From an uncultured Candidatus Melainabacteria bacterium (GTDB lineage: Bacteria > Cyanobacteriota > Vampirovibrionia > Gastranaerophilales > Gastranaerophilaceae), in contig CATLEG010000008.1 of the NCBI GenBank assembly GCA_949915775.1, positions 1-37,977 of the forward strand: a stretch of 37,977 nucleotides of DNA. The letters are read 5' to 3'. This document shows positions 3,516 to 37,977 of the stretch, piece after piece. The position numbers were made by a program, and so were the translations under genes. The notes beneath the pieces were generated by a model that searched no databases, had not been told where the DNA came from, and saw only the letters and a program-made list of their open reading frames with translations. How positions within the stretch are numbered: the stretch's first letter is position 1; every line of letters starts with the position of its first letter.

Positions 3516-3549
3516 TTCCCTCTCTTGGGAGAGGGTTAGGGAGAGGGTA
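3516..3549 (+). repeat. GC-rich repeat (family C) supplying a ribosome binding site
   Basis: A perfect hairpin, CCCTCTC (3518-3524), loop TTGG, GAGAGGG (3529-3535), is followed by TTAGGGAGAGGGTA ending right at the glycosylase ATG. The purine-rich GGGAGAGG is the only Shine-Dalgarno-like sequence for that gene, so the repeat appears to provide its translation signal. Related sequences occur at 32516-32556 and about 37556-37600 and 37670-37702. Confidence 0.7.
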
Positions 3550-4149
3550 ATGCAAGAAGCAACTACACAAGAAATTGAACAACTAAACACAATCCGCGAA
3601 AAATGTCTGGCATGTCAAAAATGTCCGCTTGGTAAAACTCGTACAAATACGGTGTTTTCAGGCGGTATTCCTAATCATAAACTTATGCTTATCGGTGAAG
3701 CTCCAGGATATTATGAAGATCAGAAAGGTGAACCTTTTGTCGGTAAAGCAGGGCAGCTTTTGGACAGAATTTTTGCATCTGTCGGTTTGTCTCGTCAAAA
3801 AGATGTTTATATATGCAATACTCTAAAATGTCGTCCGCCTGATAACCGAGACCCGCTTCCCGAAGAAAAAGAGGCTTGTAGAGAATATTTGGATGCACAA
3901 ATTGAAATTTTAAAACCCCGTATAATTCTTCTTTGCGGGCGTGTTGCTGTACAATCTATGCTTGATACAAATCAGGGTATTACAAGAATTCGCGGAAAAT
4001 GGTTTGCTGGTCCAAACAATTCTAAGATGATGCCGATTTTTCATCCGTCCTATTTACTCAGAAATGACAGCCGCGAAAAAGGTAGTCCGAAATGGCTTAT
4101 GTGGCAAGATATTCAGGAAATCAAAAAAGTCTACAGCCAGATGGATTGA
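3550..4149 (+). CDS. family 4 uracil-DNA glycosylase, Fe-S type
   Basis: This 199-residue enzyme removes uracil from DNA as the first step of base excision repair. Four cysteines at 22, 25, 94 and 110 (CQKC, LKCRPP and EACREYL) match the 4Fe-4S ligands of family 4 glycosylases. GEAPG (49-53) with downstream ED is the active-site loop, and HPSYLL (165-170) is the second conserved motif with its His. Length is typical. The start ATG follows a GC-rich repeat whose GGGAGAGG serves as ribosome site. It is likely a single-gene unit or cotranscribed with the XRE regulator 38 bases upstream. Confidence 0.93.
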   Translation: MQEATTQEIEQLNTIREKCLACQKCPLGKTRTNTVFSGGIPNHKLMLIGEAPGYYEDQKGEPFVGKAGQLLDRIFASVGLSRQKDVYICNTLKCRPPDNRDPLPEEKEACREYLDAQIEILKPRIILLCGRVAVQSMLDTNQGITRIRGKWFAGPNNSKMMPIFHPSYLLRNDSREKGSPKWLMWQDIQEIKKVYSQMD

Positions 4150-4192: not shown

Positions 4193-4243
4193 TTTCTCTG
4201 AAAGAGAGGTTTTTATGTTAAATTTTATGTTTAAATCCCTTTC

Positions 4244-4253
4244 GGGGGGGGGG
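4244..4253 (+). repeat. G10 homopolymer tract, possible phase-variation switch
   Basis: Ten consecutive G lie 29 bases inside the frame opened by the ATG at 4215. With ten G the frame ends at TAA 4257-4259. With eleven (or eight) G it runs without a stop into the prepilin frame. The preceding CTTTC is also found, inverted, at the tract of the second prepilin gene. Confidence 0.8.
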
Positions 4254-4303
4254 CACTAACCGCCATTTCGCAAGGGCTTCAGGGTTATAATTCTGGAAGA
4301 CTT

Positions 4304-4972
4304 TTGTGTAAAAAAGCATTTACGCTGGCTGAAGTTTTGGTTACTCTCGGAATTATAGGGGTTGTTGCATCTCTAACCATGCCAACGCTTATTCAAAATC
4401 ACAAAAAGAAAGTTACGGCTGTTAAGTTAGAAAAATTTTATTCTATTATGACTCAGGCGATTGAAAGTTATGAATCAGAAAGAAACTTGCTACCTGAAGA
4501 TATGCGTATTCCGGCGGATACTGTTCAAAATGGTAAAAATCTTCAAGTTTGGTATAATAACACATTTGGAAAGTATTTAAAATCGGTTTCTCAGAAATCT
4601 TCAGATCTTGGTTTTCTTGTTCTTCTTGCGGATGGTTCAGGATTTAATGCTTATGTATCCGATCATTCTCAGATGCATATTTTCTATTGTACTGAGGCAA
4701 AATATTGTAATAATAAATTAGATGGTTCTGAGGGAAATTTCAATGGACAAACTGGATTTTTATTTGGTTTATATAAAGGAGAATTTATTACATCAGGTCC
4801 AGATTTCCAAAACATGACAAGAGAAGAATTATTAAAACAGTGTTCATACGGAAATACTGAAGATGCAAATGTTTCTGCTGCCGGAAGACGTCATGCTTGT
4901 ACTCGCTTAATTCAAGTTGATGGTTGGGAATTTAAGGATGATTATCCATGGAAGCAAACTATACTTAAATAA
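4304..4972 (+). CDS. prepilin-like protein with type IV pilin/T2SS N-terminal signal; probably phase-variable
   Basis: FTLAEVLVTLGIIGVVASLT is the class III signal peptide and hydrophobic N-terminal helix of type IV pilins and pseudopilins, with Glu at position 5 of the mature form. The residue before the cleavage point is Ala, not the usual Gly. A globular domain follows with six or seven Cys and the C-terminal motif GWEFKDDYPW, shared with the gene at 36852. Only a TTG (4304), with a weak GGAAG upstream, starts the frame as assembled. The ATG at 4215 has a better promoter and ribosome site but is joined in frame only if the G10 tract is 11. That version would have a 35-residue leader. The product is probably an exported pilus or secretion-system subunit. 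Confidence 0.8.
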   Translation: MCKKAFTLAEVLVTLGIIGVVASLTMPTLIQNHKKKVTAVKLEKFYSIMTQAIESYESERNLLPEDMRIPADTVQNGKNLQVWYNNTFGKYLKSVSQKSSDLGFLVLLADGSGFNAYVSDHSQMHIFYCTEAKYCNNKLDGSEGNFNGQTGFLFGLYKGEFITSGPDFQNMTREELLKQCSYGNTEDANVSAAGRRHACTRLIQVDGWEFKDDYPWKQTILK

Positions 4973-32385: not shown

Positions 32386-33237
32386 TTATATATTTCTCAA
32401 CTCCAGATAATCATGCAATGCGACCTGCCAATTTCTACATAAACCGCCATTATCCATTACGCTAAATTTTGGACGTTTTGCTGGGCGGGGAAATCCTTCT
32501 GTTGTACAAGGTTTTAACCCCTCTCCCCAGCCCTCTCCCTCAAGGGGCGAGGGAGCTTGCCGATTATATTGTGCAAAAATCTCTTTGGCAAACCCATACC
32601 AGGTCGTAAATCCAGACCCGCAAACATGATATGTTCCATATGGTTTTGATAATAATTTTAAAATTCCGTTTGCAAGCTCAACTGTCCAAGTTGGACATCC
32701 AACTTGATCATCTACAACATTAATCTCATTTCTATCTGCTAATGCGAGCATTGTCTCAACAAAGTTTTTTCCATGATGACCATATAACCAGCTTGTTCTA
32801 ACTACGTAATATTTTTCACAAAGACTTCTAACAGCTTCTTCACCTTCATATTTTGTTGCTCCGTAATTATTTATAGGATTTGGTAAATCTTCTGGAGTAT
32901 ATGGTTCAATACTTTCTCCATCAAAAACATAATCCGTAGAAATATAAACAAGTGTTATGCCGAGTTTTCCGCATGTTTCAGCGATATTTTCAGTACCTGT
33001 AACATTTATCAGTTCGGCTGTTTTCAAATCTTCTTCTGCTTTATCCACATTTGTATAAGCTGCGCAGTGAATAACCATATCCGGTCTAATATCATTTAAA
33101 ACTTGATTAACTTGTTCTGCATTTGTTATATCCAATGTATCGACATCTGTTTCAATAACAAAAGCTCCAACATCTTCCAAAATCGGGCATAAATCTTGAC
33201 CGAGCATTCCTTTTGCACCGGTTACTAATATTTTCAT
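32386..33237 (-). CDS. rmlD: dTDP-4-dehydrorhamnose reductase
   Basis: This 283-residue SDR enzyme completes dTDP-L-rhamnose. The GxxGxxG motif is VTGAKGMLG (5-13); then IHCAAYTNVDKAE (57-69), the ISTDYVF segment (99-105), YGATKYEGE (125-133) with catalytic Tyr and Lys, and VVRTSWLYG (145-153). The C-terminal substrate region FPRPAKRPKFSVMDN is conserved. Residues 229-240 (PSPLEGEGWGEG) are encoded by a GC-rich repeat at 32516-32556 inserted in frame; other RmlD enzymes lack this stretch. It overlaps the GT92 gene by one base and precedes rmlA. Confidence 0.95.
   Translation of the reverse strand: MKILVTGAKGMLGQDLCPILEDVGAFVIETDVDTLDITNAEQVNQVLNDIRPDMVIHCAAYTNVDKAEEDLKTAELINVTGTENIAETCGKLGITLVYISTDYVFDGESIEPYTPEDLPNPINNYGATKYEGEEAVRSLCEKYYVVRTSWLYGHHGKNFVETMLALADRNEINVVDDQVGCPTWTVELANGILKLLSKPYGTYHVCGSGFTTWYGFAKEIFAQYNRQAPSPLEGEGWGEGLKPCTTEGFPRPAKRPKFSVMDNGGLCRNWQVALHDYLELRNI
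32516..32556. repeat. GC-rich repeat (family C) inside rmlD
   Basis: The element contains CCCTCTCCCC, AGCCCTCTCCCTC and GGGGCGAGGG and can form a CCCTC/GAGGG stem. It belongs to the same family as 3516-3549 and the pilin leader elements at about 37556-37600. It leaves the rmlD frame open. Confidence 0.75.
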
Positions 33238-36851: not shown

Positions 36852-37763
36852 TTACCAAGGATAATCATCCTTAATTTCCCATCCATCCATCATAATAACG
36901 GCAGCACAGCTATCCCCCGGTGCATAATGATCAGGAGCCGGAGAATCTTTATAACAACCGCCGGTACGTATAGGTCCTTTTAATAAATTGTCTCTTGTTA
37001 TTTTGTTAGAAAAAGGAACAGTGCCATCAGCTCCAAAAGGCAAAAATCTGGGTTTACTTTTATCTTGTAATGTAAAAGTAAAAACATCTTTACCCAGTAT
37101 TGGAATATCCGGATTATTAACATAAATTTTAACATCTATATAACCATATGGATGCCAATAAAACCACCATGCAGTTGCAGAACCCGGATTTATAAGCACA
37201 TAACCGGAGGTTTTACTGGGTTCAGATTTTGGATTACCTAATAACCTAGATCTCTGTATACCAGAACATTTGGCAATAGAATTATGAGGACAAGATGCAG
37301 CTTTATTAAATTTAACATAAGGTTCAATATATTGTTGAACCCACAAAGTAACACCATCTATTCCTGAATAATCCCAATTGGCACCATTTTCGGCAACTCC
37401 CATTTGGAGAGCCTGATTAAGCTCAGAATAAGATTTTTTCAATGTAATTGCAACCCGTTTTTTCTGATGGCTCTCAACCCAACCTGGAATAACAAGCACC
37501 GCCACAATACCGATAATGCCAAGGGTGATTAGGACTTCCGCTAGAGTGAAGGCACATTTCCCCCTCCCTATTTGAGGGGAGGGGGTTAGGGGGTGGGTTT
37601 TATCAGTCTTTAAGCCGTTAAGACGATAGGTCGATAAGTTCTTATCGTGTGCTACGCACACAAAACATGTTCCCTCTCCTGTGGGGAGGGCTAGGGAGGG
37701 GGCTGGTTTGAGATCCTTCGCTTTGCTCAGTATGACGAAAATTTTACACCATAACCAGTTCAA
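36852..37763 (-). CDS. second prepilin-like protein; reading frame extended through repeats, probably phase-variable or decayed
   Basis: FTLAEVLITLGIIGIVAVLV is a type IV prepilin/pseudopilin signal helix, again with Ala before the cleavage site. The globular part contains WVESHQKKR, several Cys, and the C-terminal DGWEIKDDYPW shared with the gene at 4304. No start codon lies near the pilin motif. The frame runs back through four repeat elements to a TTG at 37763, or to the ATG at 37819 with a perfect AGGAGG (seven bases upstream) if the C10 tract at 37785-37794 is 11 long. The leader would then be 90 residues, far longer than normal prepilins. This is either a switchable gene with an unusual leader or one damaged by repeat insertion. 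Confidence 0.7.
   Translation of the reverse strand: MNWLWCKIFVILSKAKDLKPAPSLALPTGEGTCFVCVAHDKNLSTYRLNGLKTDKTHPLTPSPQIGRGKCAFTLAEVLITLGIIGIVAVLVIPGWVESHQKKRVAITLKKSYSELNQALQMGVAENGANWDYSGIDGVTLWVQQYIEPYVKFNKAASCPHNSIAKCSGIQRSRLLGNPKSEPSKTSGYVLINPGSATAWWFYWHPYGYIDVKIYVNNPDIPILGKDVFTFTLQDKSKPRFLPFGADGTVPFSNKITRDNLLKGPIRTGGCYKDSPAPDHYAPGDSCAAVIMMDGWEIKDDYPW
37556..37740. repeat. stack of four repeat elements in the second prepilin leader
   Basis: From the pilin motif outward: a GC-rich family C element (37556-37600, CCCCTCCC and GGGGAGGGGG); one arm of family A (37611-37645, GTTAAGACGATAGG); a second family C element (37670-37702); and a TCAGTATGACGA-type element (about 37703-37740, GATCCTTCGCTTTGCTCAG). 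All are free of stops in the pilin frame. Confidence 0.7.
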
Positions 37764-37784
37764 AATCCTTGCTAAATGGCTTTC

Positions 37785-37794
37785 GGGGGGGGGG
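37785..37794 (-). repeat. C10 (G10 on the plus strand) homopolymer tract near the second prepilin start
   Basis: On the coding strand the tract begins 24 bases after the ATG at 37819 and is followed by GAAAG. At 10 C the frame stops at TAG (37774-37772). At 11 it joins the prepilin frame. The first prepilin gene has the same length and the same in-frame requirement. Confidence 0.8.
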
Positions 37795-37847
37795 CGATGT
37801 GTGAAGTTTTATTAAACATATATTTACCTCCTTAGTTGCTCAGATGG

Positions 37848-37948: not shown

Positions 37949-37977
37949 ATTATTTACTATTTTTCGCAGTTTGTCAA
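37949..37977 (-). promoter_or_regulatory. putative promoter for the second prepilin gene
   Basis: On the minus strand TTGACA (37977-37972), exactly 17 bases, AATAAT (37954-37949). It would give a leader of about 120 bases containing the family D palindrome before the AGGAGG and ATG at 37819. The sequence ends at the window edge, so nothing upstream can be judged. Confidence 0.55.

Follow-up and report, generated by a model that had tools for sequence, protein, structure and literature searches.

Homopolymeric C/G tracts of mostly ten bases precede prepilin-like genes and appear to hold them out of frame in uncultured Gastranaerophilales

Results

Two prepilin-like genes of the window lie behind ten-base tracts

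The window (the whole stretch of DNA analysed, 37,977 nucleotides) contained only two C/G runs of 7 or more bases, the C10 and G10 tracts of Table 1, and both were located upstream of the only two prepilin motifs of the window. Approximately 0.001 runs of 10 or more bases were expected by chance in a stretch of this size, which agreed with the sequence-only reading that the two tracts argue against chance; that reading, too, had noticed no further tract of the kind in the 38 kb. That reading also regarded the tract as the same at both loci; the length (10) and the frame logic were indeed shared, but the sequence was not, the coding strand carrying C at the second locus and G at the first. The positions it gave for the start codon, the Shine-Dalgarno sequence seven bases upstream, the stop reached with ten C and the prepilin frame joined with eleven were all correct; its overall range (37556-37831) ended one base within the Shine-Dalgarno sequence.

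With eleven C, the frame of the second locus continued through MFNKTSHIAPPPESHLARILNWLWCK...GKCA directly into FTLAEVLITLGIIG, giving a leader of approximately 90 residues. The leader consisted of dispersed repeats (GTCATACTGAGCAAAGCGAAGGATCTC, CCCTCCCTA...TAGGGAGGGGG and others) common to other prepilin leaders and to intergenic places; inverted repeats were present in it, and the repeat families were not delimited. An element similar to the putative promoter was also found 5' of C-type cassettes in other species. Plain open reading frame calling starts such proteins within the leader, past the tract (at TTG 37763 in the second locus).

Table 1. Features of the two tract loci in the window (n, number of bases in the tract)
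Feature	Position	Strand	Remarks
First locus, Shine-Dalgarno GAGAGG	4204-4209	+	
First locus, ATG start	4215-4217	+	
First locus, G10 switch tract	4244-4253	+	OFF at n=10, ON at n=11
First locus, TAA terminating translation at n=10	4257-4259	+	
First locus, mature prepilin-like protein FTLAEVLVTLGIIG...	4319-4972	+	Nine relatives aligned
Second locus, putative promoter TTGACA-17-AATAAT	37949-37977	-	About 130 nt 5' of the ATG; 11/12 consensus matches in a scan; consensus match only
Second locus, Shine-Dalgarno AGGAGG	37827-37832	-	Read directly; kept in cassette A copies; spacer to ATG 7
Second locus, ATG of the tract frame, MFNKTSHIAPPP...	37817-37819	-	Identical start in cassette A copies of this genome
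Second locus, C10 switch tract	37785-37794	-	OFF at n=10, ON at n=11
Second locus, TAG terminating translation at n=10	37772-37774	-	Product MFNKTSHIAPPPKAI, then stop
Second locus, leader, read only with the tract in frame	37551-37784	-	Open in the pilin frame
Second locus, mature prepilin-like protein FTLAEVLITLGIIG..., C-terminal DGWEIKDDYPW	36852-37550	-	PF07963, TIGR02532, AlphaFold

The protein of the second locus matched PF07963 in the genome search (E = 4.9e-5) and TIGR02532 with 20.3 bits against a cut-off of 16.3; the cleavage/methylation motif with Glu at +5 was present at the N-terminus. The AlphaFold model of the mature protein had a helix at residues 4-56 followed by a beta domain (pLDDT 85), and a Foldseek search with the mature domain returned no significant PDB match. 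Peptidase_A24 (PF01478) was absent at E ≤ 0.001 from the assembly (98% complete, 143 contigs) despite about 80 prepilin motifs, with 12 of 14 controls matching. The prepilin peptidase of this genome is divergent or missing. Because no Peptidase_A24 match was obtained, we call the proteins prepilin-like on the basis of signal sequence and helix; a type IV pilus is not proven.

Tracts are enriched upstream of prepilin motifs in this genome

The profile search with PF07963 gave 82 prepilin-motif matches in the 2.04 Mb genome. C/G runs of at least 8 bases numbered 61, where base composition predicted 1.8. Of the runs no more than 1.3 kb away from a prepilin motif, 26 were upstream of it and one was downstream. 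The contingency-locus system proposed from the window alone, with tracts enriched at other prepilin genes, was thus supported in the genome, and likewise in the genus (see below), while switching in cells remains inferred. Length 10 was the most frequent (39 runs), followed by 9 (11), 11 (5), 13-15 (3), 12 (2) and 8 (1). Most of the runs without a prepilin motif nearby were only some hundreds of bases from a contig end, where repetitive leaders break the assembly; the switchable gene set may also explain the assembly breaks at pilin genes of this genome.

Start codons were picked by rule (an ATG with a Shine-Dalgarno sequence within about 100 nt). Grouped by structure, 15 prepilins, including that of the second locus, depended on the tract and had no Shine-Dalgarno ATG after it, and two had a tract plus such a later ATG. 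A long leader with an in-frame Shine-Dalgarno ATG, for which no tract is needed, was present in 24 and a short leader in 14; 21 reached contig ends and five fitted none of these classes. The path from tract to pilin was blocked by an extra stop or frameshift at 10 of the 27 tract loci. All ten paths were long, and decay or other starts thus also exist in this genome.

Tract number follows prepilin number across the genus

The survey covered 33 species genomes, mostly MAGs; the genus name of the window is inferred, and tract loci matched records named Candidatus Gastranaerophilales bacterium and Candidatus Scatousia. These genomes contained 148 runs of 9, 1,621 of 10 and 150 of 11 bases, so that 84% were exactly 10; in genome G042 this length accounted for 169 of 175. 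Homopolymer lengths are consensus calls, and related loci are not independent. The number of prepilin matches varied from 9 to at least 150 per genome, and tract number grew with it (Spearman 0.71). A single genome had up to 175 runs of 9-11 bases, and roughly two thirds or more of these preceded pilin-like genes. Genomes from other families of the order had 0-10 runs of 8 or more bases. Two species, G021 (134 prepilin matches) and G039 (98), were almost without tracts; the switch is lost or never acquired in some species. The tracts of G002 were 12-13 bases long and belonged to another cassette, MKKITISALNPS-G12/13 (loci L310, L312, L314, L327 and L336), in which every tract was one base too long.

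Tracts were also found inside non-pilin genes: glycosyltransferase-like L226 and L241, the large adhesin-like L247, and OmpA/MotB-like L238 and L249. Ten was the ON length in some of these genes, and others were one base short or long. The non-pilin genes were named by reading only, the prepilins by HMM.

One length class opens the pilin frame and most loci are OFF

One length modulo 3 gave the full reading frame, and other lengths stopped early. The ON length was 2 mod 3 (11) in 83 of 97 loci; among prepilin loci selected by length, this held for 30/34 (n=10), 33/44 (n=11) and 14/17 (n=9), and the thirty-three n=11 loci were ON. Length 11 (mod 3) is therefore the ON state at approximately 80-85% of loci. 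Lengths that differ while the phase is kept are what slippage would leave behind; this comparison is between loci and species, with no two strains of the same species available, so that a change of length at a single locus was not observed. In a sample drawn without regard to length, only 4 of 67 loci were ON; among the cassette copies of this genome the ON count was 6 of 40, and weighting of the length-selected samples gave about 16% of loci. The overall value was approximately 6-16%, compared with one third by chance. With ten by far the most frequent length and eleven as a rule the one that is ON, the majority of pilins are OFF, and a single cell probably shows few of the repertoire. In one sample, n=11 loci appeared to have 10 as the ON length (P = 3e-6), a coupling of length and phase that would have spoken for programmed slippage or for an out-of-frame state being maintained; it was not reproduced in the larger length-selected sample.

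Single colonies of Campylobacter jejuni yielded G8 257, G9 214, G10 431, G11 77 and G12 9 (PMC4965091), a distribution broader than the one found here. The narrow peak at 10 could result from a mutational bias, by which 9 grows and 11 shrinks, together with a majority assembly call from a mixed population.

Shared start-plus-tract cassettes precede unrelated pilin bodies

Two cassettes recurred in this genome. Cassette A, aggaggtaaatatATGtttaacaaaacttcacacatcg-Cn, was present in about 14 copies and cassette B, ttaaactaaatatATGaaaagattttcgagtgag...cccgtc-Gn, in 26 copies without a clear Shine-Dalgarno sequence; further loci had unrelated 5' ends with a tract. The simplest locus (C90:1412) read MFSIFNCPPPLKA followed directly by FTLAEV at n=11, with the tract inside a leader of 13 residues. 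The 78 pilin bodies fell into 59 families at ≥40% identity. Cassettes A and B each preceded many unrelated bodies, indicating that cassettes and bodies have been shuffled. Close pairs of near-identical cassette copies were too few for a slippage rate.

The nearest homologous bodies of the window gene were 44-55% identical to it. The sequence-only reading would have been refuted by homologues with a simple short leader and no tract. Some homologues of this kind exist (L164, 49% identical, has an ordinary ATG and a short leader and lacks a tract), but the majority of the closest ones carry a tract (L163, L165, L185 and L186, each with G10 and in need of +1). The same type of body is thus joined to differing 5' ends across species.

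Leaders built from repeats stay open between tract and pilin

The longest leaders had approximately 330 residues, and long leaders were mosaics of dispersed repeats. These repeats also occurred intergenically and at no fewer than seven further sites in the window, with one copy inside rfbD. The rfbD-like gene (32386-33237, minus strand) carried the in-frame repeat APSPLEGEGWGEGLKP at 32514-32554, of the same family as in prepilin leaders. Repeats resembling leader modules were located at 89-140, 164-201, 933-970, 2451-2504, 2928-2975 and 3516-3552, mostly between likely genes.

In other species the pilin frame was open from tract to pilin at 106 of 109 loci, with no stop in about 5,400 codons against about 450 expected from the other frames; the remaining two frames over all 109 loci contained 561 and 401 stops. 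In the three stretches that were not open, tract and pilin may not belong together. The openness of the frame indicates that the leader is translated. A leader of about 90 residues built from repeats had been named as the weak point of the frame argument; this objection no longer holds, such leaders being common in this genome and the tract-to-pilin frame being open elsewhere. The codon-position test gave a weak third-position excess in two leader modules and none in a third, and leader peptide sequence was weakly conserved. From the weak codon-position signal, the leader seems free in sequence while open, and the open frame itself seems to be the selected property.

The translated leaders of L165, L171, L180, L206 and L209 contained a promoter-like TGTTATAAT and then a palindrome GTGATATGAAACATCAC, possibly a former promoter/operator of the pilin gene. 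The FTLAEV signal was duplicated in many leaders (GFTLAEVFSPCRKVKLNFGFTLAEVLITLG; contigs C65, C82, C120 and others of this genome), as though a repeat had inserted into the signal itself. In locus C3:16155 (L013), also of this genome, a C15 tract was followed by three near-tandem FTLAEVF(S/L)P..KVK copies before the pilin, and the ON length was 1 mod 3, unlike at most loci.

Discussion

We regard slipped-strand phase variation as the probable explanation, acting on a large set of pilins that are OFF by default, with switching in cells inferred from the tracts rather than observed. Mispairing during replication would add or remove a single C (or G) and so bring the start codon into or out of the prepilin frame. 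At n=10 the ribosome would halt a few codons past the tract and the pilin would be OFF; at n=11 (or 8 or 14) it would continue through the leader to reach the FTLAEV signal, and the pilin would be ON. The same switch would act before many pilin-like genes in the genome and the genus, carried on start-plus-tract cassettes common to unrelated bodies. Removal of the long leaders at the FTLAEV site is likewise an inference, as are a bet-hedging role and a role in adhesion or evasion. The tracts themselves, their position and enrichment, the frame logic, the open leaders and the statistics of length and phase are direct observations. Counting against this explanation are the narrow distribution of lengths, an ON fraction below the one third of chance, the ten blocked paths and the 24 long-leader prepilins with an in-frame Shine-Dalgarno ATG in this genome, the two prepilin-rich species almost without tracts, and the lack of a Peptidase_A24 match.

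The strongest rival, unlikely in our judgement, is that the DNA is fixed at ten and that RNA polymerase slippage or ribosomal frameshifting yields a little full-length pilin in every cell. It stays alive because the peak at 10 is narrower than in C. jejuni single colonies, and 10 predominates for C and G tracts alike although 11 is the usual ON length. However, tracts of 9, 11 and 12-15 bases also occurred at loci with an intact frame, most of them sharing one phase, and in this genome intact paths were equally common at lengths other than 10 (6/10) and at 10 (11/17). The 12-13 base tracts of G002 need -1 and not +1, and the coupling of length and phase that one sample had suggested failed in the larger one. 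Transcriptional slippage is also reported to favour A/T runs (PMC5084427).

Alternatively, most tract genes might never be expressed and serve as donors, the shared cassettes and leader repeats providing the homology by which they recombine into a small number of expressed loci. The occurrence of cassettes A and B before so many unrelated bodies and the mosaic structure of the leaders would suit such a silent reservoir. A mere donor, however, has no need of the tract, start and leader frame that are kept open in other species, and no single expressed acceptor locus was identified, so that we hold this possibility to be quite improbable.

Two further explanations carry very little weight. A frame break from real decay or a homopolymer sequencing artefact, to which error-prone homopolymers and the ten blocked paths of this genome would lend themselves, is hardly compatible with the same outcome across genomes of several projects and assemblers, with reported lengths of up to 15 and with a tract-to-pilin frame free of decay in other species. 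Translation from a start downstream of the tract, making the tract irrelevant for pilin expression, is conceivable where a leader holds an in-frame Shine-Dalgarno ATG (the 24 prepilins above) or an embedded promoter-like element, or at TTG 4304 of the first locus, yet it is just as poorly supported overall, since the 15 tract-dependent loci here and 27 of 33 in a further sample lack a Shine-Dalgarno ATG on the way from tract to FTLAEV and an open leader from the tract onward would be needless.

On the reading of slipped-strand phase variation, a more tentative extension is that the promoter-start-tract cassette is a movable switch, spread by recombination between unrelated pilin genes. The repeat-built leaders would help in this and later be removed, and each bacterium would hold about 100 default-off pilins that are re-dealt as well as switched. 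This extension is possible rather than likely. If the tract slips in RNA too, a trace of each pilin would be present on every cell.

Homopolymer phase variation has been described chiefly in a handful of pathogens whose switchable genes number in the tens. The set described here, mostly pilin-like and found in uncultured non-photosynthetic gut relatives of cyanobacteria, is among the largest switchable gene sets known to us. In the open-licence literature, no report was found of such tracts or of switched pilins in Melainabacteria, Gastranaerophilales or Scatousia.

In Neisseria, pilE/pilS pilin variation and pilC phase variation give a variable pilus surface, with a homopolymeric switch in a pilus-related gene. 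Here, unlike in pilE/pilS/pilC, the switch lies on the pilin-like genes themselves, at many dispersed loci, and no pilE-like acceptor was identified. The proteins resemble type IV prepilins and pseudopilins (PF07963, TIGR02532) in the signal FTLAEV(L/T)ITLGIIG with Glu at +5 and in the long N-terminal helix; they differ from type IV prepilins in number (tens to at least 150 per genome), in leaders that are built from repeats and reach about 330 residues, in a globular domain without significant PDB match and in the absence of a detected Peptidase_A24 in this genome. Rickettsia palindromic elements are in-frame repeat insertions (review PMC10969869), and the repeats described here are similarly dispersed and open inside coding genes, also in rfbD; however, they are concentrated before the pilin signal, several per leader, and form mosaics between loci. 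As in the contingency loci of Campylobacter jejuni, Helicobacter and Neisseria, a C/G run of about 8-12 bases in the coding region is ON at one length modulo 3 and affects surface or glycan genes (PMC4965091), and as in known phasomes, tracts are also present in genes resembling those of glycosyltransferases and adhesins, of which some are ON and others OFF at the present length. C. jejuni NCTC11168 has 29 such loci, whereas up to 175 runs of 9-11 bases per genome were found here, mostly before pilin-like genes; and, unlike in Campylobacter, Helicobacter and Neisseria, the usual length is the OFF length, with about 6-16% rather than one third of loci ON. The class of mechanism is already known; what is new is its scale, the default-off phase, the shared cassettes and the length of the repeat-built leaders.
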